43,309 nt of DNA from a virus. Within the stretch, counting starts at the first letter, position 1, and each line of letters starts with the position of its first letter. A program made the translations under genes and the position numbers. Of this stretch, positions 7,781 through 43,309 are shown in pieces. The stretch spans positions 1-43,309 of IMG/VR virus record IMGVR_UViG_3300028392_001847; one strand, given 5' to 3'. The notes beneath the pieces were generated by a model that had not been told where the DNA came from, did no database searches, and saw nothing but the letters and a program-made list of their open reading frames with translations.

Positions 7781-8452
7781 ATGCCCATACCTTCAACACA
7801 TTGGTATACAAAACCTGACACTCCTATAATATTACTAGGAAGTATTGAAAGGTCAATACTTGAACCACTTGCAACCTATATATTAGGTAACATAAAAGCA
7901 GAACGAGTAAGAAGATATCCAGAATGGTGGGATGGAATACATTGGATGCAGTTTCCTTTTTTCTTTCGAAAATATCAAGATCACATGCACTTATTAGATA
8001 ATCCTGCGAACGAAAATAAGTACGATCAAATAGTAAAAATAAACGAGTTATCTCAAGATATATTTGCTAGAGTTGAAGAGCTAAATCCTGGATTCAGTAT
8101 CTATCTAGCCGAAGTTAATTACATGTCGCCCGCGGCTTGCATTAAAGCTCACGTAGATAATTCCACTGGAGAATTTTGGTGGATAAACATGACTCGCAGA
8201 GTGCATGTGCCAATCACTACCAATGCTGAAACTATGATGACTTGTGGCAATATGTCTATGTGTATGGAAATTGGGTCAGTATATGAGTTTAATAATATAG
8301 TAATGCATTCTGGCGCCAACAATGGCACCAGTCCGAGAACCCACATAGTATTAGATCTTGTTCCAACTGAATATTTTGATGAATTTGAAAATTATATAGT
8401 AAACATATTTTGGAAAGGAAATAGTCAAGGAAAATCATGGTGGACAAAATAA
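7781..8452 (+). CDS. 2-oxoglutarate/Fe(II) oxygenase, copy 1
   Basis: This 223-residue protein has the double-stranded beta-helix facial triad: HVD at 124-126 and a distal His at 176 (VMHSGANN), with Arg186 in PRTHIVLDL as the likely 2-oxoglutarate salt-bridge residue. The overall pattern matches the aspartyl/asparaginyl beta-hydroxylase-like family, whose members hydroxylate protein side chains. The substrate is unknown; host or phage protein modification is possible. It is followed at once by a paralogue (8474-9148) with the same N-terminus (STHWYTKPDTPIILLG), so this is a tandem duplication. No SD is evident before either copy. Confidence 0.88.
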   Translation: MPIPSTHWYTKPDTPIILLGSIERSILEPLATYILGNIKAERVRRYPEWWDGIHWMQFPFFFRKYQDHMHLLDNPANENKYDQIVKINELSQDIFARVEELNPGFSIYLAEVNYMSPAACIKAHVDNSTGEFWWINMTRRVHVPITTNAETMMTCGNMSMCMEIGSVYEFNNIVMHSGANNGTSPRTHIVLDLVPTEYFDEFENYIVNIFWKGNSQGKSWWTK

Positions 8453-8473
8453 AGCCGTTATCCTTAAAAAACT

Positions 8474-9148
8474 ATGCTCACACCTTCAACACATTGGTAC
8501 ACTAAACCAGATACTCCTATAATATTACTAGGCGATATTGATAAATCTATGCTAGAGCCTCTTGCCGCCTGTGTGGCAGGCAACCTAAGAGAAGAACGCA
8601 CACAGCATTTTCCAGAAAAGTTTAAAGGTATACACTGGCATCAGTTTCCATTCTTCTTTCGCACATACTCGCATAAATTTAAAAAACTTCACCCTGCTTT
8701 AACAACAAAGTATTTTGAGGAAATTTCAGAAATATACGATGTATGCGAGGGTATATTTACTAGAGTTGAAGAATTAAATCCAGGATTTTCCATCTATATC
8801 GCAGACATAAACTATATGGCTCCGGGAACAGCAATTAAGCCTCATATAGATAATGAAGACGGATCTGTATGGTGGTTTACTATGACTAAGAGGGTACATG
8901 TACCTATTACCACTAATGCTGACACTATAATGACTTGTGGCAATATGTCTATGTGTATGGAAATTGGATCAGTATATGAGTTTAACAATATGGTCACACA
9001 TTTTGGTGCTAATAATGGTTCTAGTTCTAGAACGCATGTTGTAATCGATTTAATCCCAACAGAGTATTTTGATGAATTTGAAAATTATATACGAACTATA
9101 GTTTGGAAAAAAAATAAAGGTTGGGACATTGCTTGGTATCAAAGATAG
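8474..9148 (+). CDS. 2-oxoglutarate/Fe(II) oxygenase, copy 2
   Basis: This 224-residue paralogue of the preceding gene keeps the triad (HID near 125, distal His in VTHFGANNG, Arg in SSRTHVVIDL). The two proteins differ mainly in residues about 35-95 and near the C-terminus. One internal stretch, centred on the CGNMSMCMEIGSVYEFNN peptide, is almost identical at the DNA level (8239-8297 versus 8933-8991, about two mismatches), much closer than the surrounding sequence. This suggests gene conversion or a constrained site. The copies may have different substrates. The unit ends here, before a sigma70-like promoter. Confidence 0.87.
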   Translation: MLTPSTHWYTKPDTPIILLGDIDKSMLEPLAACVAGNLREERTQHFPEKFKGIHWHQFPFFFRTYSHKFKKLHPALTTKYFEEISEIYDVCEGIFTRVEELNPGFSIYIADINYMAPGTAIKPHIDNEDGSVWWFTMTKRVHVPITTNADTIMTCGNMSMCMEIGSVYEFNNMVTHFGANNGSSSRTHVVIDLIPTEYFDEFENYIRTIVWKKNKGWDIAWYQR

Positions 9149-15066: not shown

Positions 15067-16167
15067 ATGAGCAAAGCACAATACAACTTACACACTAAAA
15101 CTGACTACCTAAGCCGTAAGATGTTTCTGGATCCAGCAGGTCCAGTGACTATCCAACGCTTCGAAGAAGTTAAATACAAGAAGATTGCAGACTTCGATGC
15201 CACGGCTCGTGGTTTCTTCTGGCAACCCGAAGAGATTAGCCTAAGCAAAGACAGTAATGACTTTAAAGATGCCAGTGATGCCATTAAGCATATCTTTACC
15301 AGTAACTTACTACGACAAACAGCATTAGATAGTTTGCAAGGACGTGGCCCTACACAAGTGTTTACTCCAGTATGTAGTATTCCCGAATTAGAAGCACTGA
15401 TGTACAACTGGGGATTCTTTGAAACCAACATTCACTCAAAGAGCTACAGCCACATTATTCGCAACATCTACAATGTGCCCAAGGATGTATTTGCTACCAT
15501 TCACGACACTGAAGAAATTGTTAGCATGGCGGCAAGTGTAGGCAAGTATTATGACAATTTGCATTTGATTAACTGTCGCAAAGAAACAGGAGAATTTGTT
15601 TCCGAAGTTGAACATATACGAGCTATATGGTTGGCACTCAACGCCAGCTATGCCCTAGAGGCATTTCGATTCATGGTATCATTTGCTACTAGTTTGGCCA
15701 TGGTAGAGAACAAGATCTTTATTGGTAACGGTAATATTATCAGTTTGATACTACAAGACGAGTTGTTACATAAAGGCTGGACTGCTTACATTATCAATCA
15801 AGTGGTCAAGGAAGATCCTCGATTTGCCAACGCAAAACTTGATTGCGAGGCCGAAGTATACCAAATGTACTTGGATGTTATACAGGAAGAAAAAGATTGG
15901 GCAGTATACCTGTTTAAGAAAGGTCCTGTGATTGGTCTCAACGCAAACATTCTAAAAGATTTCGTTGATTATACCGCAGTAAGCGCACTCAAAGATATCG
16001 GAATCAAGTATCAAGTAAGTTCTCCAAAGTCAACACCAATTCCCTGGTTTAACAAACACGTAGATACTAGCAAGAAGCAAACAGCACTACAAGAAAATGA
16101 GTCGACAAATTATGTTATTGGCATCATGGGGGAGGGCATAGATTATGAAGCACTGCCGTCACTATGA
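15067..16167 (+). CDS. nrdB: Ribonucleoside-diphosphate reductase beta subunit, class Ia
   Basis: This 366-residue diiron/tyrosyl-radical subunit partners NrdA. Ligands visible by motif are Asp in LDSLQGRGP, Glu and His in FFETNIHSKSY, Glu in ALEAFRFMVSF, and Glu and His in QDELLHKGW. The Tyr of HSKSYSHIIRNIY matches the radical tyrosine position. The C-terminal tail (GEGIDYEALPSL) should bind NrdA. An SD (AGGAAAAT) precedes the ATG. It overlaps the methyltransferase by ATGA. Iron demand links it to the IscU/IscA and heme-oxygenase genes downstream, which is inference. Confidence 0.96.
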   Translation: MSKAQYNLHTKTDYLSRKMFLDPAGPVTIQRFEEVKYKKIADFDATARGFFWQPEEISLSKDSNDFKDASDAIKHIFTSNLLRQTALDSLQGRGPTQVFTPVCSIPELEALMYNWGFFETNIHSKSYSHIIRNIYNVPKDVFATIHDTEEIVSMAASVGKYYDNLHLINCRKETGEFVSEVEHIRAIWLALNASYALEAFRFMVSFATSLAMVENKIFIGNGNIISLILQDELLHKGWTAYIINQVVKEDPRFANAKLDCEAEVYQMYLDVIQEEKDWAVYLFKKGPVIGLNANILKDFVDYTAVSALKDIGIKYQVSSPKSTPIPWFNKHVDTSKKQTALQENESTNYVIGIMGEGIDYEALPSL

Positions 16168-18069: not shown

Positions 18070-18393
18070 ATGAAACAGTTATTATTAGCACTTTCAATGT
18101 TAGCAGTAGTAGGTACTGCTAATGCACAATGGCATCATCATGGTCCTTACTATAGGGGCGGCGGCTTCTATGCTGGAGGCAACTGGGTTGGGCCAGCACT
18201 TATCGGTGGTGTAATTGGTTATGAACTTAATCGTCCACGCTATTATGAACCACCTGTAGTTGTACAGCAACAGCCGATTATTGTGCAACAGCAACCTGTA
18301 TATACAGTTACACCGCAACCAAGTTGTACGGTATGGACAGAAACACAACACTCTGATGGTACCGTTACTCGTACCAGGACCTGTACACAATAA
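18070..18393 (+). CDS. Secreted His/Tyr/Gln-rich periplasmic protein
   Basis: This 107-residue protein has a clear signal peptide: MKQLLLALSMLAVVGTANAQ with predicted cleavage after ANA. The mature part begins WHHHGPYYRGGGFYAGGNWV, has a Gly-rich zipper (VGPALIGGVIGYEL) and PVVVQQQPIIVQQQP-type repeats, and ends with two Cys residues in a Thr-rich tail. The GGVIGYE segment resembles the glycine-zipper of small outer-membrane or periplasmic proteins. An in-frame ATG at 18049 was rejected because it would precede the signal peptide. It would be exported by the host. It abuts iscU (overlap of one base). Confidence 0.75.
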   Translation: MKQLLLALSMLAVVGTANAQWHHHGPYYRGGGFYAGGNWVGPALIGGVIGYELNRPRYYEPPVVVQQQPIIVQQQPVYTVTPQPSCTVWTETQHSDGTVTRTRTCTQ

Positions 18394-18797
18394 TGGCATA
18401 CTCGGATAAAGTAATTGATCATTACGAAAATCCACGCAACGTGGGATCGTTTGAAAAAGATGATCCCACAGTTGGCACAGGTATGGTCGGTGCACCTGCT
18501 TGTGGCGATGTGATGAAACTACAAATAAAAGTAGGCGCAGATGGTATCATTACAGATGCAAAATTCAAGACTTACGGTTGTGGTTCGGCCATTGCTAGTA
18601 GTTCTCTTATCACTGAATTGGTCAAAGGCATGAGTTTGGATCAAGCAAGCTCAATCAAGAACAGCGACATTGCTGAAGAGTTGGCTCTACCTCCGGTCAA
18701 GATACATTGTTCAATACTAGCAGAAGATGCTATCAAGGCGGCAGTAAATGATTATCGTAACCGAAACAGCATCAAAGAAGATACAGCAACAGCTTAA
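18393..18797 (+). CDS. iscU: Iron-sulfur cluster scaffold IscU
   Basis: This 134-residue protein has the IscU signature. All three cluster ligands are present: Cys37 in GAPACGD (with Asp39), Cys63 in TYGCGSAIASS, and Cys106 in KIHCSILAEDAI. The LPPVK motif bound by Hsp70/HscA chaperones appears as ALPPVKIHC (about 98-106). It assembles nascent Fe-S clusters using sulfur from a cysteine desulfurase, which is not encoded here and would come from the host. It overlaps iscA by 50 nt. Length is typical (about 128). Confidence 0.95.
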   Translation: MAYSDKVIDHYENPRNVGSFEKDDPTVGTGMVGAPACGDVMKLQIKVGADGIITDAKFKTYGCGSAIASSSLITELVKGMSLDQASSIKNSDIAEELALPPVKIHCSILAEDAIKAAVNDYRNRNSIKEDTATA

Positions 18798-19074
18798 ACG
18801 CCGAGGCCGAGGTGTTGGCATACGAATCGGTGTAAAGACCACAGGTTGCAGTGGATTGGCTTATACACTGGAATATGTGGACGAGTACGAACCTGAAGTT
18901 GGTGTTACCAATTTTGCCCAACCAGATTTTTGTGTGTTGGTAGATGCCAAAAGTCTAGCATACTTGAATGGCTTGACAATGGATTGGGTCCGCAATGGTC
19001 TCAATGAAGGGTTTGAATTTTCCAATCCAAATTCCAAAGGCGAATGCGGTTGCGGTGAAAGTTTTCGAGTGTAA
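18748..19074 (+). CDS. iscA: A-type iron-sulfur carrier IscA
   Basis: This 108-residue A-type carrier has the three conserved cysteines: Cys34 in TTGCSGLAY, and Cys100 and Cys102 in GECGCGESF. A-type proteins pass clusters from IscU to targets or deliver iron. The gene begins inside iscU (50-nt overlap in another frame), so the two are tightly coupled. Likely clients are the phage Grx/NrdB system or the host ferredoxin needed by the bilin reductase at 28016 (inference). SufA/ErpA naming is possible for the same family. Confidence 0.93.
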   Translation: MIIVTETASKKIQQQLKRRGRGVGIRIGVKTTGCSGLAYTLEYVDEYEPEVGVTNFAQPDFCVLVDAKSLAYLNGLTMDWVRNGLNEGFEFSNPNSKGECGCGESFRV

Positions 19075-19080
19075 ACACAT

Positions 19081-19109
19081 TTGACATAGTTTGACTATTC
19101 TAGTATAAT
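19081..19109 (+). promoter_or_regulatory. Sigma70 promoter with palindrome over the -10
   Basis: Perfect TTGACA, 17-bp spacer, perfect TATAAT (19104-19109). CTAGTATAATACTAG (19100-19114) is a perfect 15-nt palindrome centred on the -10, an operator-like layout also seen at 42857-42871. Confidence 0.85.
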
Positions 19110-23507: not shown

Positions 23508-23721
23508 GGGAACTGGTATCTCAGTTCGGGAAGGCGAAAACATCAATGTAAGTCTTCGCCGATTCAAACGTAAAATTGAAGATGCTGGCACTTTGGAAAC
23601 ATTACGTGCCAAAGAATTTTACGAAAAGCCAACTACAGAACGCAAACGTAAAAAAGGTGCCGCCAAAAGTCGTTGGAATAAAAAGCTCAGAGATCAACAA
23701 CTTCCACCAAAACTCTATTGA
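23485..23721 (+). CDS. rpsU: Ribosomal protein S21 (bS21) homologue
   Basis: This 78-residue protein contains the full bS21 core: [20 protein letters not shown], then [20 protein letters not shown] and [14 protein letters not shown] with a basic tail ending QQLPPKLY. bS21 sits on the 30S platform near the anti-SD helix and influences initiation. A phage copy can replace the host protein and bias translation to phage mRNA. Several ATGs are possible (23461, 23482, 23485, 23491); 23485 was chosen for its spacing to GAGG at 23479-23482. It overlaps the previous gene by 23 nt. Phage-encoded S21 is known from marine phages. Confidence 0.93.
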
Positions 23722-23746
23722 CATAATACATTAACAGTGTTATAAT
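23718..23746 (+). promoter_or_regulatory. Consensus sigma70 promoter with start codon 6 nt past the -10
   Basis: Perfect TTGACA (overlapping the S21 stop), 17-bp spacer, perfect TATAAT (23741-23746), then 6 nt and the ATG at 23753. The expected mRNA is leaderless, as at 9204. Confidence 0.85.
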
Positions 23747-24679: not shown

Positions 24680-24739
24680 AATTTGTAGAACGCCGCGAGG
24701 GTCTACAAATTTCTTGCTTAATTAAAGGAGATTATTATG
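24679..24739 (+). promoter_or_regulatory. ROSE-like RNA thermometer in the dnaK leader
   Basis: Two hairpins precede dnaK. The first has an 11-bp stem (24679-24689 with 24702-24712). The second pairs TCTTGCTT (24712-24719) with the SD region AAGGAGA (24725-24731), with G716 bulged and one U-G pair, loop AATTA. A TTGCT strand facing the SD with a bulged G is the hallmark of ROSE thermometers. The same element precedes hsp20. Confidence 0.75.
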
Positions 24740-26644
24740 AGCAAAATCATCGGTATCGATTTAGGTACAACAAATAGCTGTGTAGCGATCCTAGAAAACG
24801 GAATTGCTAAAGTAATTGAAAACAGCGAAGGTGCTAGAACAACACCATCAATCATTGCATATACAAAAGACGAGATCCTAGTAGGTGCAACAGCAAAACG
24901 ACAAGCAGTCACAAACCCAAAGAACACAATCTACGCCAGCAAACGTCTTATTGGACGTAAGTTTGACGAGAAAGAAGTACAAAAAGACATTGACTTGATG
25001 CCATATACTATTGTCAAAGCGGACAACGGTGACGCTTGGATCGAAGCCAACGGCGAAAAGCTAGCACCACAACAAGTGTCAGCTGAAGTACTTCGCAAAA
25101 TGAAAAAGACTGCTGAAGACTATCTAGGTTATGCAGTAACGCAGGCAGTAATTACTGTACCTGCGTACTTTAATGATAGCCAACGTCAAGCTACTAAAGA
25201 TGCAGGTCGTATCGCTGGCTTAGAAGTATTGCGTATTATCAACGAACCAACAGCGGCCGCACTGGCATATGGTGTGGACAAAGCAGACAAGAAGGATCGC
25301 AAGATTGCGGTATACGACTTGGGCGGTGGTACATTTGATATCAGCATTATTGAAATTGCCAATGTGGAAGGCGATAAGCAAATTGAAGTGCTCTCCACAA
25401 ATGGCGACACCTTCTTGGGTGGCGAAGACTTTGACCAAGTAATTATGGATTACCTAGTTGACGAGTTCAAGAAAGATAATGGTGTTGATCTGAAGCAGGA
25501 TGTACTTGCTCTTCAACGTTTGAAAGAATCCGCAGAAAAGGCCAAGATTGAACTATCCAGTGCCGCAAGCACAAGCGTTAATTTGCCTTACATCACGGCA
25601 GATGCAACAGGTCCTAAACACATGAATGTAACTATCAGCCGTGCCAAGTTTGAGTCAATGGTTGAAAAGCTAATTGCTCGTTCAATTGAGCCATGTAAGA
25701 TCGCTATGACTGATGCTAAAGTAACAGCCGCAGACATTGACGAAGTTATCCTAGTTGGTGGACAAACACGTATGCCTAAAGTGCAGGAAGCAGTTGAGAA
25801 ACTGTTTGGCAAGGCTCCACGTAAAGACGTAAACCCAGACGAAGCAGTTGCCGCCGGCGCCGCCATCCAGGGTGCCGTTCTAGCAGGCGATAAGACAGAC
25901 GTATTGTTGTTAGACGTTACTCCGTTGACACTAGGTATTGAAACAATGGGCGGAGTGTTTACCAAGCTGATTGCCAAGAACACCACAATTCCAACTAAGC
26001 ACTCACAGACTTTCTCAACAGCAGAAGACAATCAACCAGCTGTAACTATCAAAGTTGCACAGGGCGAGCGTGACTTGTTTAGATACAACAAATCACTAGG
26101 TGAGTTTAACTTAGAAGGTATTGCCCCAGCAATGCGTGGTACTCCACAAATTGAAGTTACACTTGACTTAGATGCTAACGGTATTCTTAATGTAAGTGCC
26201 AAAGATAAAAACACTGGCAAAGAAAATAAGATTACTATTAAATCCGACTCAGGCCTAACTGAAGCTGAAATCCAACGTATGGTTAAAGAAGCTGAAGAAA
26301 ATGCAGAGTCAGATAAACAGCAAAAAGAGTTAATCGAAGCACGTAATCAAGCAGAATCAACTCGTCACTCTTTAAACAAAGATTATGACGAGTTCAAAGA
26401 TCAAGTTACTGAACAAGAACGTACTGATTTTGAAACTGCTAGAACTGCATTAGATGAAGCGGTGGCTGGTGAAGACAAAGAAAAAATAACTGAAGCAGTT
26501 ACTAATTTGTTTGAACAAGCTGGGCCGTTCATCACTAAGAAACAGGAAGCTGAATCTGCCAAAGCGGCAGAACCTGTACAAGCAACCGAAGGTGAAACTG
26601 TTAATGCGAGTTTTACAGAAGTTGACAAAGAAGAAAAGAAGTAA
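24737..26644 (+). CDS. dnaK: Hsp70 chaperone DnaK, full length
   Basis: This 635-residue protein is a complete DnaK. The N-terminal ATPase domain has [16 protein letters not shown], the Walker-like [12 protein letters not shown] (phosphate 2) and [11 protein letters not shown]; the linker [14 protein letters not shown] is intact; the substrate domain and helical lid follow, ending in an acidic Glu/Lys tail. Family length is about 638. It refolds proteins with DnaJ and GrpE, which are not in this window and must come from the host. Roles could be capsid folding or replication, or serving the phage IscU through its LPPVK motif. The leader contains a ROSE-like thermometer. Full-length DnaK is unusual in phages. 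Confidence 0.98.
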
Positions 26645-26658
26645 TATAATAAACACCC

Positions 26659-26713
26659 GGGGCGCCTATGATAGGGCCCCGTAAAGTTCTTGCTTAACAT
26701 AAGGAGATATAAC
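26659..26713 (+). promoter_or_regulatory. ROSE-like RNA thermometer in the hsp20 leader
   Basis: A GC-rich hairpin (about 26659-26682, 10 bp with one bulged G) is followed by TCTTGCTT (26688-26695) pairing with AAGGAGA (26701-26707) around AACAT, again with a bulged G (26692). The 11 bases TTCTTGCTTAA are shared exactly with the dnaK leader. Confidence 0.78.
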
Positions 26714-27139
26714 ATGTCAGGAATGCAACTTAGAACTATTAACCCAGCTGACCTAGCACAGATTAGCAGAGCCCTAGTAGGGTTTGATCAGTATTTTAAT
26801 AATACTAGAACACACTCAAACTATCCTCCACATAATATTGTGAAGTATAGTGATAGTGATTATGCTATTGAAGTAGCAGTAGCTGGATTCAGCAAAGAAG
26901 AAATCACAGTAGAAGTAGACCAAGATCAATTGGTCGTACGTGGTGTAAAGTCAGAAGCAGATACTGATACTAAAGAGTATCTGCACAGAGGATTAGCCGC
27001 ACGTAACTTTGAACAAAATTGGACTCTTGCCGAATACATGGAAGTAAGAGAAGCTGAAGTAACAGATGGAATGTTAATCGTTCGTATCGAGCGAATCATG
27101 CCAGAAGCACTGAAGCCTCGACAAATTGTAGTTAAATAA
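26714..27139 (+). CDS. Small heat-shock protein Hsp20 (IbpA-like)
   Basis: This 141-residue protein is an alpha-crystallin-domain holdase. The core runs from about 38 to 130: IVKYSDSDYAIEVAVAGFSK (the AV(A/P)GF strand), ITVEVDQDQLVVRGVKS, YLHRGLAARNFEQNWTLAEY (matching the YxHRGIAxRxFxRxFxLAD block of IbpA), then DGMLIVRIERIMPE. It holds unfolded proteins for DnaK refolding. The ATG at 26714 lies 7 nt after its SD, which is masked in a ROSE-like hairpin. It follows dnaK by 70 nt. Hsp20 genes are common in marine T4-like phages. Confidence 0.95.
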   Translation: MSGMQLRTINPADLAQISRALVGFDQYFNNTRTHSNYPPHNIVKYSDSDYAIEVAVAGFSKEEITVEVDQDQLVVRGVKSEADTDTKEYLHRGLAARNFEQNWTLAEYMEVREAEVTDGMLIVRIERIMPEALKPRQIVVK

Positions 27140-27181: not shown

Positions 27182-27481
27182 ATGTCCACTGATATTCAGA
27201 TCGAAGAGAAGATCAAAATTAAAGCTACAGAGCCAAAGCGTTGGAAAGTTATCTTATTGAATGACGACTCGACTCCTATGGAATTTGTAATATCGTTGTT
27301 GATCAGTATCTTTAAACATACTCATGAAACGTCCCAAGAAATTATGCTACAGGTTCATGAAACTGGCAGTGGTGTAGCTGGTCTATACAGTTTTGAAATT
27401 GCTGAAGCCAAGGCTGTTGAATCAACACAACAAGCTCGAACTGCAGGTTACCCACTACAAATTAAATTGGAGGAAGAATGA
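27182..27481 (+). CDS. clpS: ClpS adaptor (N-degron recognition)
   Basis: This 99-residue protein matches ClpS: KRWKVILLNDDSTPMEFVIS (the NDD-x-TPM segment that contacts the N-end residue), the LQVHETGSGVAGLY block with the conserved His, and YPLQIKLEEE at the end. ClpS delivers N-degron substrates to the ClpAP protease. A phage copy could redirect host proteolysis. The gene lies within the chaperone cluster and overlaps the heme oxygenase by ATGA. The N-terminal extension needed for ClpA contact is present (about 20 residues). Confidence 0.94.
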   Translation: MSTDIQIEEKIKIKATEPKRWKVILLNDDSTPMEFVISLLISIFKHTHETSQEIMLQVHETGSGVAGLYSFEIAEAKAVESTQQARTAGYPLQIKLEEE

Positions 27482-28029
27482 GCCTACGAGATTTAACTCA
27501 TGAAGCGCATAAAAATGCTGAGCGTCAAGAATTTGTAAAAATATTGTTTTCAGGTAATATTAATCCTAAACTCTATGCTACATTTTTAAAAAATCAGCAT
27601 CCACAGTATGAAATTTTAGAAGTATGCGCAATGATGCACGGGCTACTAAGTGATATGCCGGAGATTCGTCGAGCACCTGCAATACTTGACGATTTTATTG
27701 AACTATGGGGTTCTGACAGTAAAGAAATGCCAAATATGTGTCCCACTGTACAGAAGTACATGGATTACATCATGAGCATTAAAGATCAACCTGAACGATT
27801 AATGGCACATATCTATGTGCGCCACATGGGTGACCTAGCTGGCGGACAAATGATTGCCGCTAAGGTGCCCGGCAAAGGCAAAATGTATAAATTTAATAAT
27901 CCGGACGAACTTAAGGCAACTATTCGTTCAAAAATTAACGACAATATGGCAGACGAAGCAAAAGTGTGTTTTGAATTTGCTACAGAAATGTTTAAAGAAA
28001 TGCTAGAAATTGCCAATGACTTCAAGTAA
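27478..28029 (+). CDS. Heme oxygenase (biliverdin-forming)
   Basis: This 183-residue protein is a heme oxygenase. The proximal His is likely His11 in LTHEAHKNAE, matching H-xx-AE of the family. The distal helix signature appears as HIYVRHMGDLAGGQMI (about 111-126), matching the (Y/H)xRxLGDLSGGQ pattern. It cleaves heme to biliverdin IXa, CO and Fe(II) using reduced ferredoxin. The protein is shorter than plastid types but similar to phage and bacterial ones. It is coupled by ATGA to clpS and by a 14-nt overlap to the bilin reductase, so its product feeds the next enzyme. Confidence 0.93.
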   Translation: MSLRDLTHEAHKNAERQEFVKILFSGNINPKLYATFLKNQHPQYEILEVCAMMHGLLSDMPEIRRAPAILDDFIELWGSDSKEMPNMCPTVQKYMDYIMSIKDQPERLMAHIYVRHMGDLAGGQMIAAKVPGKGKMYKFNNPDELKATIRSKINDNMADEAKVCFEFATEMFKEMLEIANDFK

Positions 28030-28702
28030 AGTATGGGATACATTAATAGAAATTCAGCATCTATTGGAGAGCGAATTTGGCCGGACTGGGAGTGAAATTT
28101 TCGAGCCTGGAATGGATCGTTTTAACCAACCTGGTTGGGTTAATCGTGTATGGACTTCTGATCGCTATCGCCGTGCTCATATTGATGTGGTTGATGCGCG
28201 AGATTCTAAAGGACTCTGGATGATGCACTGTTGCATCTTCCCACATACGCATAATCCTGCGCCAATATTTGGGTTTGATGTAGTAGCTGGTAAGAACAAA
28301 ATGACTGGTTGCTTTCATGACTTTTCAAAAGCTGGCGATCCTGAACATCCGCTAATGGACTGGTTTGCAGACGAAGCACAAAAGCTAGAATGGAATAAAA
28401 CTCGAAAATTACCTGACTGGGCAGAACGTATTTTTAGCCCTAGCATGATTGCCGCTGGTAATGTTAGTGAAGAAGCAGAATTAGAGCAAATTTTTGCCAT
28501 GGCTAGGCACAATCTAGCGCATTATTTAGAATCAGTAGCTGAAACTAATAATACAGCTAACGATACTACAGCAGAACAAAATTACTACTGCGAAAATCAA
28601 AAGCAAAACCCACACACACCGCGTGTTATGATTAGTTTGGGACTAAGTGAGGAAGATGTACAAGTATTCATACAAGAATGCCTGTTCCCGGAACTAGCAT
28701 AA
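28016..28702 (+). CDS. pcyX: Ferredoxin-dependent bilin reductase (PcyX/PebS-like)
   Basis: This 228-residue protein belongs to the ferredoxin-dependent bilin reductase family. Landmarks are RRAHIDVVDARDSKGLWMMH, PAPIFGFDVVAGKNKMTGCF with the probable catalytic Asp in FGFD, HDFSK, WAERIFSPSMIAAGN, and the C-terminal block NPHTPRVMISLGLSEEDVQV ending FIQECLFPEL. It reduces biliverdin to a pink or blue bilin. Oceanic phage PcyX enzymes, found beside heme oxygenases, make phycoerythrobilin; this assignment is by resemblance, and PcyA- or PebS-type products remain possible. It overlaps the heme oxygenase by 14 nt. Reduced ferredoxin must come from elsewhere. Confidence 0.9.
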   Translation: MTSSKVWDTLIEIQHLLESEFGRTGSEIFEPGMDRFNQPGWVNRVWTSDRYRRAHIDVVDARDSKGLWMMHCCIFPHTHNPAPIFGFDVVAGKNKMTGCFHDFSKAGDPEHPLMDWFADEAQKLEWNKTRKLPDWAERIFSPSMIAAGNVSEEAELEQIFAMARHNLAHYLESVAETNNTANDTTAEQNYYCENQKQNPHTPRVMISLGLSEEDVQVFIQECLFPELA

Positions 28703-28712: not shown

Positions 28713-29915
28713 ATGCGTGTAATTGATATTATTAATGAAATGGCCACTTTGAGTAGAGCACAATTGCTCGATCCTCGTACCAAGTGGCGAGCCGACGTTT
28801 TACTGAAGAAAGTTGCCGACGGTGCCACAGTTGAAATTGAAGAAAAAGTAGACGGTAAAATTGTAAGAACTCCAGTTAAGTTAGACAACTCCCCAGAAGA
28901 AGTAGCAAGAGTTTCTGCTTGGTTAAATGATCCAGCTCAGCAGGCTAGCGGTAATTTAATTCTGGCAACACGCAATAAAAAATATCCAGTTGTTTCTCTT
29001 AATAAAATAGCCAAAGACAAAGATTTTGGCGGTGAAGAACTAGCTTCTCGTGAGCGAGTAGAACAGGGACAGATTGAGTCAATCAACCAGCATATAATAC
29101 AAAATGCACGTAAACTTGGGTCAAAAACTATTAGCTTAAAAGTAGGCAACAGAATTGTAGATGCCGGAGGTGTATTTAAAGCTACTCCTGGAGTCAAAGC
29201 AGATGCCCAAATTGTTGATGGAGCAAGTAACCCGGTTGCATGGATCAGTCTGAAAGACGGCCCTGGACCCAAAGCCATTGCAGGTTGGGGCGGTATTACA
29301 CACCCTCCGGTTGTCCATCATCCTGAGATTCAAGACTTTATCTCACAATCGCAAATACTGTTTGGCAAAGAGGGAATTCCTAAAGCGACCTCAATGGGTC
29401 GTGAAATAAACGATACAACCTTAAAAAATCAAATTATTTTTGGTAAGAAATTTGGAGGTGACCCAGGCCCTAGCAATGTTGATGCAGTAATGGCGGGCGA
29501 CATCCAAATTAAAAAAATAGATAAAGATACATTTGAAATCTACGGTACTGATAATACTTGGCCAAATGGAATCACTCCAGACGGTACTTTTGATCCTGTA
29601 TTAAATATTTCTTACAAGGGCGATAGAGATAACGCTGGTATTCCCGGAGCAAGGATATCAGTACAACCCATTGGCGGACGTAGATGGGATCCAATTGATG
29701 GCGAAATTAAAAAGCTAGCGAAAAAGAAACCAGCTAAAAAAGCCAACACAAAAGAACTTCCGCATGATGGCGAGCGCAAGTTACCTGTACCTCCGACTAA
29801 GGCCGTTAAACCAGTCAAACCTGTTGCTCCAGTTCCCGCAGTACCTACAACACCAGTAACTCCTACAGTAAACACTACTGATATCCCAGAGGAAGAGTTA
29901 GCATATAAAAGCTAA
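28713..29915 (+). CDS. Phage protein with a PD-(D/E)XK-like core
   Basis: This 400-residue protein opens MRVIDIINEMATLSRAQLLD. A central region reads VKADAQIVDGASNPVAWISL then KDGPGPKAIAGWGGITHPPV (about 168-208); D-x(n)-WISxKDG is familiar from unassigned T4-like proteins and resembles a PD-(D/E)XK nuclease-like core. The last 80 residues are a Lys/Pro/Val/Thr-rich low-complexity tail (AKKKPAKKANTK, then VPPTKAVKPVKPVAPVPAVP). It stands alone behind a late motif. Nuclease activity is unproven; an internal virion protein is an alternative. Confidence 0.6.
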   Translation: MRVIDIINEMATLSRAQLLDPRTKWRADVLLKKVADGATVEIEEKVDGKIVRTPVKLDNSPEEVARVSAWLNDPAQQASGNLILATRNKKYPVVSLNKIAKDKDFGGEELASRERVEQGQIESINQHIIQNARKLGSKTISLKVGNRIVDAGGVFKATPGVKADAQIVDGASNPVAWISLKDGPGPKAIAGWGGITHPPVVHHPEIQDFISQSQILFGKEGIPKATSMGREINDTTLKNQIIFGKKFGGDPGPSNVDAVMAGDIQIKKIDKDTFEIYGTDNTWPNGITPDGTFDPVLNISYKGDRDNAGIPGARISVQPIGGRRWDPIDGEIKKLAKKKPAKKANTKELPHDGERKLPVPPTKAVKPVKPVAPVPAVPTTPVTPTVNTTDIPEEELAYKS

Positions 29916-36410: not shown

Positions 36411-37187
36411 ATGCAGAAAACTTATCGTAGCATTTTTATTTCTGACGTACACCTTGGCACACGTGACTCACAAGCTGCCAAGCTCAACAACTTTCTCAAA
36501 CACAATACATGCGAAACATTATATCTTGTAGGAGATATTATCGATGCATGGAAAATTCAACAAAACAAATGGCGATGGAAACAAAGCCATACAAATGTTG
36601 TTCGCCGTGTACTTGGCCATGCCAAACGTGGCACTAGGGTTGTATACGTGGCTGGAAATCATGACGAATTCCTGCGCCCGATGATACCATATGGTTTTAG
36701 TTTTGGTCTTGTTGAAATACACAATCAAACAGAACACATAGGTGCAGATGGCAAACACTATCTTGTAACACACGGTGATTTGTTTGATGGCATTACTAGA
36801 CTTGCTCCGTGGCTTGCTTTTTTGGGAGACAAGTTATACGATTTAGTATTAGATTGGAACAGTAGATTCAATTGGATACGCCATAAGTTAGGCTTTGGTT
36901 ACTGGAGTCTTAGTAAATATCTCAAGCACAAAGTCAAGAAGGCCTCGGACTTTATGTTTCAATTTGAAAAGAATCTAGCAGGCTATTGTAAAAAGCGCGG
37001 CTTTGACGGTGTTATATGCGGACATATACATCACGCTGAAATAAAAGAAATAGACGGCGTCACATACATGAATGATGGTGACTGGGTTGAAAGTTGTACG
37101 GCCTTGGTTGAACACCACGATGGTAAGTGGGAGATAATCACATGGACACGAGAGAATGACAAAGACGATACTGATAATAACGGATAA
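36411..37187 (+). CDS. plcP: PlcP-like metallophosphoesterase (phospholipase C of lipid renovation)
   Basis: This 258-residue calcineurin-like phosphoesterase has ISDVHLGT (Asp12, His14), LVGDIIDAW, VYVAGNHDEFL, VTHGDLFD, and VICGHIHHAE. The later blocks (NWIRHKLGFGYWSLSKYLKH, MNDGDWVESCTALVEH) match the alphaproteobacterial group long annotated as UDP-2,3-diacylglucosamine hydrolase, several of which are PlcP. PlcP removes the head group of phospholipids to give diacylglycerol during phosphate stress. The next gene, overlapping by 32 nt, is an Agt-like glycosyltransferase, the usual partner. A true LpxH function is less likely because no other lipid A gene is present. Confidence 0.87.
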   Translation: MQKTYRSIFISDVHLGTRDSQAAKLNNFLKHNTCETLYLVGDIIDAWKIQQNKWRWKQSHTNVVRRVLGHAKRGTRVVYVAGNHDEFLRPMIPYGFSFGLVEIHNQTEHIGADGKHYLVTHGDLFDGITRLAPWLAFLGDKLYDLVLDWNSRFNWIRHKLGFGYWSLSKYLKHKVKKASDFMFQFEKNLAGYCKKRGFDGVICGHIHHAEIKEIDGVTYMNDGDWVESCTALVEHHDGKWEIITWTRENDKDDTDNNG

Positions 37188-38154
37188 TCTTAAGGATCAA
37201 ATCAATGGTGTTGTTACGACCTACAAAAATATTGAGATTTGTGCTGTTCGTGACGGTTATAACGTTGTGGTGTTGGATCCCGGGTGGTTCAGCTACATTG
37301 ATTGCCCTGGCTACAACGAAGTCAAGATTGCCTATCCGCGGAACCTGGGCAAGAAGATTGCGGAGATATCTCCGGATTATATCCATGTCGCCACAGAGGG
37401 TCCTCTTGGTCTGTGGGCTAGAGCATATCTTTCATTGGCTGGTGTTCCTCACAATACCGCTTATCATACTAAGTTTCCAGAAGGACTTAAGAAGCTGTTT
37501 GGAATACCTGAGTGGATCACTTGGCGCTTTGTACGCTGGTTTCATAAGCATAGCGGTAAAGTTTTAACCACTACAGACAGTATGGTTCGAGAATTGCAAG
37601 CACATGGGTTTGATGGTGAGGTTATTTCCTGGACTCGTGGTGTTGACCGTGCGATCTTTACTCCCGATCTTAGAGAAGATGCGCCAGCCAAATATTTGTT
37701 ATGTGTCAGCCGCGTGAGTAAAGAAAAGAATTTAGAAAAGTTTTTTGAACTGGACTATCCAGGATACCTAAAGATCATGGTGGGCGATGGTCCCATGCTG
37801 GAAAAGTATAAGAAGCATTATCCAGCAGTGCATTTTACAGGTTTCAAAACTGGCAAAGATTTGGCACGTTACTATGCCAATGCCGAAGTATTTGTATTTC
37901 CCAGCCAGTGGGAAACATTTGGTATTGTTATGATTGAAGCAATGTCTTGCGGTACACCAGTTGCGGCTTTTCCGTGCCAAGGCCCAGAAGATGTAATTGA
38001 TCAAGCTGAAACAGGATTCATGAATGAAAATTTAGAGGATGCTGTTACTGCTTGCTTACAACTCAACAGAGATCGTGTTTACAAAGGTAGTCAACGTTGG
38101 TCTTGGGACCGTGCCTGGGATATATTCCGCGACAATTTAATTCCTACTAAATAG
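37156..38154 (+). CDS. agt: Agt-like glycolipid glycosyltransferase (GT4)
   Basis: This 332-residue GT-B enzyme starts MTKTILIITDNLKDQINGVV, the N-terminal lobe with IHVATEGPLGLWARAYLSLA and NTAYHTKFPEGLKKLFG, then WTRGVDRAIFTPD and the C-terminal lobe donor site LLCVSRVSKEKNLEKF, MVGDGPMLEKYKK, and FPSQWETFGIVMIEAMSCGT (EX7E type). This pattern fits the GT4 enzymes that transfer sugar to diacylglycerol (Agt, SQD2-like). With PlcP it would convert phospholipid into glycolipid, releasing phosphate. The donor sugar cannot be told. It lies in the same transcript as plcP. Confidence 0.87.
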   Translation: MTKTILIITDNLKDQINGVVTTYKNIEICAVRDGYNVVVLDPGWFSYIDCPGYNEVKIAYPRNLGKKIAEISPDYIHVATEGPLGLWARAYLSLAGVPHNTAYHTKFPEGLKKLFGIPEWITWRFVRWFHKHSGKVLTTTDSMVRELQAHGFDGEVISWTRGVDRAIFTPDLREDAPAKYLLCVSRVSKEKNLEKFFELDYPGYLKIMVGDGPMLEKYKKHYPAVHFTGFKTGKDLARYYANAEVFVFPSQWETFGIVMIEAMSCGTPVAAFPCQGPEDVIDQAETGFMNENLEDAVTACLQLNRDRVYKGSQRWSWDRAWDIFRDNLIPTK

Positions 38155-39844: not shown

Positions 39845-40561
39845 TTATATTAGATCGGTTCTTACGATACTAGCAAGTCCTAGTAGGCTAAACACTCTTA
39901 GCCATGCATATCCTAAGTCAAACTCAAACCACTTGCGACTAAGTTTAACACTAGCCGGCGACAAGTGATGATTATTATGCAGTTCCTCACCGCCAACCAC
40001 AATTCCCCATGGAACTAAATTAGTACTCTTATCACGAGACTCACCATTGCGATATCCTAGCCAATGACCTAGCCCGTTGATAACTCCGGCGGCCCAGAAA
40101 GGGATCCATATCATTTGTACACCCCACACTACTAGGCCCCACGGTCCAAAGAACAGGCAGTCTATGACCAGCATTAGAAGAATACCGAGGCGGCTATGGG
40201 GTGTATAAATGACACGTTCTATCCAATCGTCAGGAGTACCTACTCCAAACTTGTTGATCATGTCTTTGTCTTTGCTGGCATCATGATACAGGCCTGCACC
40301 TTTAAAGAACACACGAGTAATGCCATAAACATGCGGCGAGTGCGGATCGCCTTCTTTATCGCTAAATGCGTGATGTTTACGATGTATTGCCACCCATTGT
40401 TTAGTGACCATCCCAGTTGTTAGCCATAACCAGCTTCGCATGAAATGTTCTAGCACTGGATGGAATTTTATTCCTCTATGAGCTTGGCCTCGATGCAAAA
40501 ACAAAGTCACACATACTATCGTGATATGTGTGACTACCAGAGTGTATAAAATTATATCCAT
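39845..40561 (-). CDS. Fatty-acid desaturase (delta-9 acyl-CoA/acyl-lipid type)
   Basis: This 238-residue membrane protein has the three His boxes of the membrane diiron desaturases: HRGQAH (23-28), HRKHH (60-64) and HNNHH (near 195), between hydrophobic segments at about 5-22, 38-55, 125-150 and 155-170. The spacing fits the delta-9-type front-end-free desaturases. It would introduce a double bond into host acyl chains, raising membrane fluidity. It is shorter than many bacterial homologues (about 280-300). Its position next to the lipid genes plcP and agt (opposite strand) suggests coordinated membrane remodelling. It needs an electron donor such as ferredoxin. Confidence 0.92.
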   Translation of the reverse strand: MDIILYTLVVTHITIVCVTLFLHRGQAHRGIKFHPVLEHFMRSWLWLTTGMVTKQWVAIHRKHHAFSDKEGDPHSPHVYGITRVFFKGAGLYHDASKDKDMINKFGVGTPDDWIERVIYTPHSRLGILLMLVIDCLFFGPWGLVVWGVQMIWIPFWAAGVINGLGHWLGYRNGESRDKSTNLVPWGIVVGGEELHNNHHLSPASVKLSRKWFEFDLGYAWLRVFSLLGLASIVRTDLI

Positions 40562-42890: not shown

Positions 42891-43094
42891 ATGGCAACAG
42901 GTAAAGTAAAATGGTTTAATGAAACCAAAGGTTTTGGATTTATTACTCCAGACGGTGGCGGCGAAGAACTTTTCGCTCACTACTCGGCAATTCAAACATC
43001 AGGATTCAAAGTTCTGCAAGAGAATCAAGCAGTAACGTTTGATGTAGTTCAGGGACAAAAAGGCTTGCAGGCAGCAAATATTCAACCCAAGTAA
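42891..43094 (+). CDS. Cold-shock protein (CspA family)
   Basis: This 67-residue single cold-shock domain has [20 protein letters not shown] with RNP1 (KGFGFI) and ELFAHYSAI as RNP2 (usual VFVHFSAI; Phe to Leu and His-Phe to His-Tyr changes), ending [10 protein letters not shown]. It binds single-stranded RNA or DNA and melts secondary structure. Given the many leader hairpins here, a role in unwinding phage mRNA is plausible. It has its own promoter and lies directly upstream of the tmRNA gene; the stop codon sits in a hairpin (43084-43101). Confidence 0.95.
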
Positions 43095-43103
43095 TTGGGT
43101 TAA

Positions 43104-43309
43104 AGAGATAGTTGTAATCCCTTCAAAGTGAAGGCATTCTGGACCCGGGGGCAGTGCCCGGCAGGTCCACCATAAGCAGTTTGGGTCAGATGTTATAAGT
43201 CCATAGTGCATTCATATACAAGACTGTTTTTGATGGGCCTGACACAGTTTCGACAGGGTGAGATAATAGAGACGGCAACTCAGTAGGCGATGACTGTAAA
43301 TCAAGCAAA
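43104..43309 (+). ncRNA. ssrA: Circularly permuted two-piece tmRNA (partial, runs off the window)
   Basis: The acceptor piece comes first: a CCTTCA/TGAAGG stem, the T-arm CCGGG-GGCAGTG-CCCGG (43145-43161) with the atypical alphaproteobacterial T-loop, then CAGGTCC (43162-43168) and encoded ACCA. After an intervening segment (43173-43234) the coding piece begins GGGCCTGACACAGTTTCGAC; GGGCCTG (43235-43241) pairs with CAGGTCC in all 7 positions (one G-U) to form the acceptor stem. GCA at 43305-43307 after GTAAATCAA is the likely resume codon (Ala), followed by AA, fitting an Ala-Asn tag start. The rest lies outside. The 5' end is approximate. Confidence 0.92.

Follow-up and report, generated by a model that had tools for sequence, protein, structure and literature searches.

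Why phages of nonphotosynthetic bacteria keep a heme oxygenase gene (hemO) together with the bilin reductase gene pcyX has been called enigmatic (PMC11480375). We approached this question through a 43.3-kb virus fragment (IMGVR_UViG_3300028392_001847), the whole stretch of which, 43,309 nucleotides, is hereafter called the window. An initial annotation had described in it a heme oxygenase (HO) with a GDLAGGQ motif that overlaps a ferredoxin-dependent bilin reductase (FDBR) by 14 nt, and both genes and their overlap are confirmed here. They stand in the following group:

24737..26644, plus strand: dnaK (Hsp70), PF00012, E 6e-256; constant neighbour upstream of hsp20-clpS-hemO-pcyX
26622..26650, plus strand: sigma70 promoter TTGACA-N17-TATAAT, 12/12 consensus match; immediately 5′ of hsp20
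26690..27139, plus strand: hsp20, small heat-shock chaperone, PF00011, E 6.6e-15, phrog_432
27182..27481, plus strand: clpS, N-degron adaptor of ClpAP, PF02617, E 8.5e-28; 4-nt overlap with hemO
27478..28029, plus strand: hemO, heme oxygenase, 183 aa, PF01126 (Heme_oxygenase), E 1e-22
28016..28702, plus strand: pcyX-type FDBR, 228 aa, ATG at 28016, PF05996 (Fe_bilin_red), E 2.7e-18, phrog_7278, E 5e-23
28713..29915, plus strand: phrog_13937 protein (E 7e-44), 10 nt past pcyX; candidate operon end

The window HO shows the features of the HO-1 type, a type that forms biliverdin IXalpha: the profile match, the proximal His (His11), and the distal GxxxGG-type motif (GDLAGGQ, residues 118-124); in the alignment of relatives, the proximal His is retained in 152/152 sequences and GGQ in 153/153. 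The hemO/pcyX overlap (28016-28029) is exactly 14 nt long, with the FDBR ATG inside the HO frame. HO is present beside the reductase in all 163 related loci that are assessable, meaning that their upstream side is present (four further loci begin at a contig edge), and in 157 of these the two genes are separated by −32 to +11 nt. This pairing goes beyond chance. Purifying selection acts on the two genes alike (median omega: FDBR, 0.115; HO, 0.086). Two HO lineages nevertheless occur with the same reductase in window-type phages (locus pairs: FDBR 93% vs. HO 39% identical). HO was therefore replaced while the reductase stayed, so that the kept function is heme opening plus reduction, not one particular HO.

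The reductase had been assigned to the PcyX type in a noncyanophage context where a role in antennae was unlikely, an assignment that our comparisons uphold. Its closest solved structure is 5OWG, PcyX_EBK42635 (phmmer E = 2.7e-69, 50% identity), followed distantly by PcyA (E = 3.5e-14), and the same comparison gave no match to PebS at E ≤ 1. The AlphaFold model (pLDDT 92.7) has 5OWG as its rank 1 PDB match in Foldseek, and the Foldseek order agrees with phmmer in placing PcyX over PcyA, PebS, PebA, and PebB. The PcyX-specific catalytic residue is Asp55, which is missing from the PCB-making CB_2 enzyme (PMC11480375). By our alignment with 5OWG, from which this numbering was derived (Asp55 = chain residue 63), it corresponds to Asp57 of the window enzyme, in the column of PcyA Glu76. 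Asp occupies this column in 167/168 alignment rows, comprising all 167 phage-type sequences, and Glu is found solely in Synechocystis PcyA; window His71 and Asp88, which align with His88 and Asp105 of PcyA, do not vary across the 168 rows. Family profile, nearest relative, Asp55 without Glu76, the His/Asp pair, and a hemO cassette in a phage are thus all present, and judged from sequence and modeled fold the window reductase is PcyX-like. Given Asp57, the invariant His/Asp pair, and the fold, phycoerythrobilin (PEB), which PcyX enzymes form from biliverdin via 15,16-DHBV, is its predicted product.

A scan of viral contigs returned 286 reductase relatives, of which 80 at 75-85% identity were kept (contigs up to 353 kb); Mosig-type relatives formed a second set. 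In a tree whose rows included no alphaproteobacterial PcyA and whose PcyA outgroup sat on a very long branch, 53 nonredundant window-type rows and 28 marine/pelagiphage rows (including Mosig and 5OWG) fell on opposite sides of one branch (99/98 support). By these sequences, window-type reductases form a large group separate from marine pelagiphage PcyX, and the group likely inhabits freshwater. No FDBR was detected in 398 sampled Pseudomonadota genomes, which makes it very probable that the host itself lacks this pathway. Scanning genome contigs with a single reductase protein as query gave no relatives; with the alignment as query, four contigs from metagenome-assembled genomes (MAGs) were found to hold them. 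One of these (L170, 335 kb, binned as Neomarinimicrobiota) has the phage-type hsp20-clpS-hemO block and looks viral, and the remaining three all encode ClpS. In L170 (8078-10687), hemO and the reductase are kept apart by an inserted nitrilase-like gene, the block being otherwise of phage type.

Cassettes of hemO-pcyX in noncyanophages were already known from pelagiphage Mosig and from Wegner et al. (2024), so the initial claim that this contig gives PcyX genes a genomic neighbourhood came too late: the isolate Mosig and that study (PMC11480375) had supplied one. What is new is the separate clade, its operon and promoter, the HO exchange, and the beta-type host signal. The oceanic cassettes (PcyX_EBK42635/5OWG and Pelagibacter phage Mosig EXVC030M) resemble the window in gene order, overlap style, and the catalytic Asp/His/Asp, at 50-52% identity for the reductase and 46.5% for HO (Mosig). 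However, they adjoin 2OG oxygenases and neck/terminase genes (in Mosig, the flanks hold four 2OG-Fe(II) oxygenases and a ferrochelatase), whereas the window cassette adjoins dnaK-hsp20-clpS; and Mosig has an alpha-type tmRNA, whereas the window group, a separate sequence group, has a beta-type tmRNA and yielded no 2Fe-2S ferredoxin. The CB_2 pair vHemO and vPcyA/X (Wegner 2024, PMC11480375) is like the window group in that hemO adjoins an FDBR, the phage is a large one from freshwater, and part of the group has AlaS, but its proposed host is Methylocystis, an alphaproteobacterium (PMC11480375), and its enzyme, without Asp55, makes PCB, whereas the window clade keeps Asp55 without exception. 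Cyanophage ho1-pebS/pcyA likewise joins HO to a phage bilin reductase, but one of another FDBR lineage (23-35% identity to the window enzyme) in hosts that are cyanobacteria with phycobilisomes. By its description (PMC11480375), the hemO-pcyA-alaS island of Bradyrhizobium ORS278 gives a proteobacterium these same enzymes; it is, however, chromosomal, adjoins a phytochrome, and makes PCB, while the window belongs to a phage.

Which host does the phage infect? The initial annotation pointed to an alphaproteobacterium on the strength of a permuted tmRNA and lipid genes, the relevant features being:

43110..43309, plus strand: permuted tmRNA of beta type, truncated at the contig end (RF04321, 108.8 bits; RF01850, 92.9 bits)
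39845-40561, minus strand: fatty acid desaturase, from the annotation of window proteins
36411-37187: LpxH-like phosphoesterase, from the same annotation
37156-38154: glycosyltransferase, from the same annotation

Both pointers exist, but the lipid genes are uninformative on host class, and permuted tmRNAs are known in alpha- and betaproteobacteria and in cyanobacteria (PMC9004378). Host prediction by tmRNA, the check proposed with that claim, came out as beta type, against alpha: beta_tmRNA is the best-scoring class for each of the 20 full-length tmRNAs from sister phages, none of which scores as alpha, and also for the window's cut copy (its own tag is cut off), while the tmRNA of Mosig, grown on SAR11 and used as a control, scores alpha. 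The sister tags ANDEQFALAA and ANDTRFALAA resemble ANDERFALAA of a genome with a beta_tmRNA (G323), not ANDNYAEARLAA of genomes with alpha-type tags. DnaK is 68-73% identical to genomes in the order of the beta_tmRNA genome vs. 62-65% to genomes with alpha-type tags. Both the tmRNA class, with Mosig as positive control, and DnaK speak against an alphaproteobacterial host. Phage Melnitz of OM43 carries a tmRNA of its former host class (PMC9004378), so a phage tmRNA may record a former host; with this in mind, the sequences point to a betaproteobacterial host as the probable one, and we infer Burkholderiales as the order. Two gene families are not decisive for the host: phrog_27048 occurs in Delftia and Acidovorax phages and one Synechococcus phage, and the gene that follows pcyX has counterparts in phages of Sinorhizobium, Stenotrophomonas, and Synechococcus. 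Two further queries among named phages gave no match.

The region around the tmRNA has other features. Immediately before it, window positions 42900-43100 hold a cold-shock-like coding stretch and a subthreshold Rfam match to the cspA thermoregulator. Three relatives (L178, L181, and L182) have tRNA genes with a CTA anticodon near the tmRNA (tRNA-Pyl in ARAGORN), and the frame of one phage AlaS (G045:C1:58491-59666) continues across a single TAG and a single TAA; some members of the phage group may recode amber codons.

That the host is instead a cyanobacterium and the bilin an antenna pigment is highly improbable. Cyanophages with PebS/PcyA do this, and phycobilisomes can incorporate PEB from PcyX (PMC13197396), but the tmRNA is of beta type, DnaK is proteobacterial, the best reductase matches are not cyanophage enzymes, and no photosynthesis genes were seen among the annotated window proteins.

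The operon itself bears on the role of the pair. We found no description of dnaK-hsp20-clpS-hemO-pcyX in the open-access literature. The order DnaK-Hsp20-ClpS-HO-FDBR is retained in 55/60 nonredundant loci, and ClpS is encoded at 80/81 window-type loci and on 4/4 MAG contigs but at 0/68 marine loci (some marine contigs begin only a short way before hemO); its degron-pocket residues Asn27, Asp28, and His59 are invariant in 59 copies. In 44/56 relatives, the stretch from the end of dnaK to hemO contains a sigma70 promoter matching at least 11/12 consensus positions (before hsp20 in 30, before clpS in 14), and such near-perfect sites occur at 1.6 per 10 kb in relatives vs. 0.05 per 10 kb after shuffling. 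The T4-type late promoter TATAAATA was not enriched, and none is found at the operon. The window has further perfect sigma70 promoters at 19081-19109 and 23718-23746, indicating that consensus host-type promoters are general in this phage. Downstream of pcyX by 2-3 kb, 42/60 relatives encode CsgF and CsgG (curli secretion), with a FecR-domain protein next in 38 relatives and a CHASE2-nucleotide cyclase in 28, e.g., L036:12329-12874, L044:12848-14179, L059:13291-14475, and L074:18306-20435; in place of this region, the window encodes a solute-binding protein, an SDF symporter, and an Asp/Glu racemase.

The constant linkage to dnaK, hsp20, and clpS under a common promoter suggests one alternative, namely that the pair protects against oxidants within an Hsp20/DnaK/ClpS stress operon by removing toxic heme, with biliverdin and reduced bilins as quenchers. 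We regard this as possible, though unlikely: the link is one of co-localization, defense against oxidants is not known to require a four-electron bilin reductase, and the pelagiphage cassettes go without clpS (0/68). The failure of ferredoxin, phytochrome, and phycobiliprotein searches to find an acceptor protein, described below, does speak in its favor.

The position of clpS immediately 5′ of hemO in nearly all window-type loci, with pocket residues intact, suggests another, by which the phage would take over tetrapyrrole synthesis. Phage ClpS would send host glutamyl-tRNA reductase (GluTR) to ClpAP, phage AlaS, where present, would substitute for it, and HemO-PcyX would drain heme so that feedback stays off, sparing host Glu-tRNA for translation. 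Among the relatives, 9/21 records encode AlaS, a heme-making enzyme. All bacteria except alphaproteobacteria use the C5 route (PMC11480375), and betaproteobacteria are taken as its users; plant GluTR is passed to Clp by ClpS, in bacteria GluTR is a proteolytic substrate of Clp and Lon (PMC6597238), and sparing of Glu-tRNA through AlaS has already been proposed (PMC11480375). ClpS, however, also adjoins general chaperones, its handover of GluTR is known from plants and extended to bacterial ClpS by analogy, and AlaS is found neither in the window, a fragment, nor in every large relative. We consider this a doubtful, though novel, option. Doubtful by a shade more is its extension to a tetrapyrrole-control module of large betaproteobacterial phages, in which ClpS would remove host GluTR, AlaS supply precursor, and HemO-PcyX drain heme under early host-type promoters; if it held, the phage, not the host, would set heme and Glu-tRNA levels.

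What might receive the bilin, and what reduces it? Many virus records are fragments, and absences among phage records are accordingly soft: phytochrome was detected in 0/50 related phage records, phycobiliprotein in none above the cut-off, and 2Fe-2S ferredoxin in none of 49 window-type records, with one in Mosig. Having no phage ferredoxin, the reductase must then draw electrons from the host; with neither phytochrome nor phycobiliprotein, there is no phage acceptor for a chromophore. The host might provide one, a bacteriophytochrome or a bilin-binding globin: in E. coli, a phytochrome can obtain its bilin from the CB_2 enzymes (PMC11480375), and a PHY domain occurs in 26/250 genomes of the likely host order. 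The same sample, however, leaves ~90% of genomes without PHY. The chromophore of bacteriophytochromes is biliverdin itself, and adducts with PEB show no photoswitching. We therefore hold a chromophore role improbable, and the bacteriophytochrome suggested initially finds no support in phage records and little in the host order.

The reading that we tentatively rank first, ahead of the antioxidant role and the ClpS-mediated takeover, is early heme breakdown that would free iron and clear biliverdin with host electrons in a nonphotosynthetic, probably betaproteobacterial host. Host RNA polymerase would transcribe hsp20-clpS-hemO-pcyX from the consensus sigma70 promoter; HemO, judging by its family and invariant catalytic residues, would open heme to biliverdin, Fe2+, and CO; and PcyX, translated from the overlapping frame, would reduce biliverdin with four electrons from host ferredoxin, presumably to phycoerythrobilin. 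During takeover, the phage would likely gain iron and rid the cell of heme and biliverdin; the bilin would be a disposal product rather than a chromophore. Freed iron could supply phage NrdB, 2OG oxygenases, and IscU/IscA, encoded in the window as follows:

15067..16167, plus strand: nrdB, ribonucleotide reductase small chain, PF00268, E 7e-40; possible iron consumer
7781..9148, plus strand: two Asp/Asn beta-hydroxylases (2OG-Fe type), PF05118, E 8e-10 and 1e-11; possible iron consumers
18393..18797, plus strand: iscU-like Fe-S scaffold, PF01592, E 5.6e-53
18748..19074, plus strand: iscA-like Fe-S carrier, PF01521, E 3.9e-17

IscU is also encoded in 15/21 related records, in the same phages yet outside the operon. 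Besides these iron users, early heme breakdown is favored by the enzyme identities, active-site residues, 163/163 pairing, overlap, purifying selection, and the promoter in 44/56 relatives. The HO exchange, the missing phage acceptor, the oxygenases and ferrochelatase beside the Mosig cassette, and the lack of FDBR in the 398 Pseudomonadota genomes count in the same direction. Against it, the sequence gives no reason, were iron the aim, for reducing biliverdin instead of exporting it; AlaS in 9/21 records fits awkwardly with pure heme salvage; and CB_2, the characterized freshwater phage enzyme, made PCB, not PEB (PMC11480375). Iron release from heme, one of the roles first suggested for the bilin pathway, is possible, and we infer it from these gene contents.

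An inseparable pair, an exchanged oxygenase with kept function, and the tie to clpS, hsp20, and a strong early-type promoter together narrow the role of hemO-pcyX: light harvesting is very unlikely and light sensing unlikely, and early heme/iron handling or heme-pathway control is likely. The probable host class moves from alpha- to betaproteobacteria, which tells experimenters which bacteria to use.
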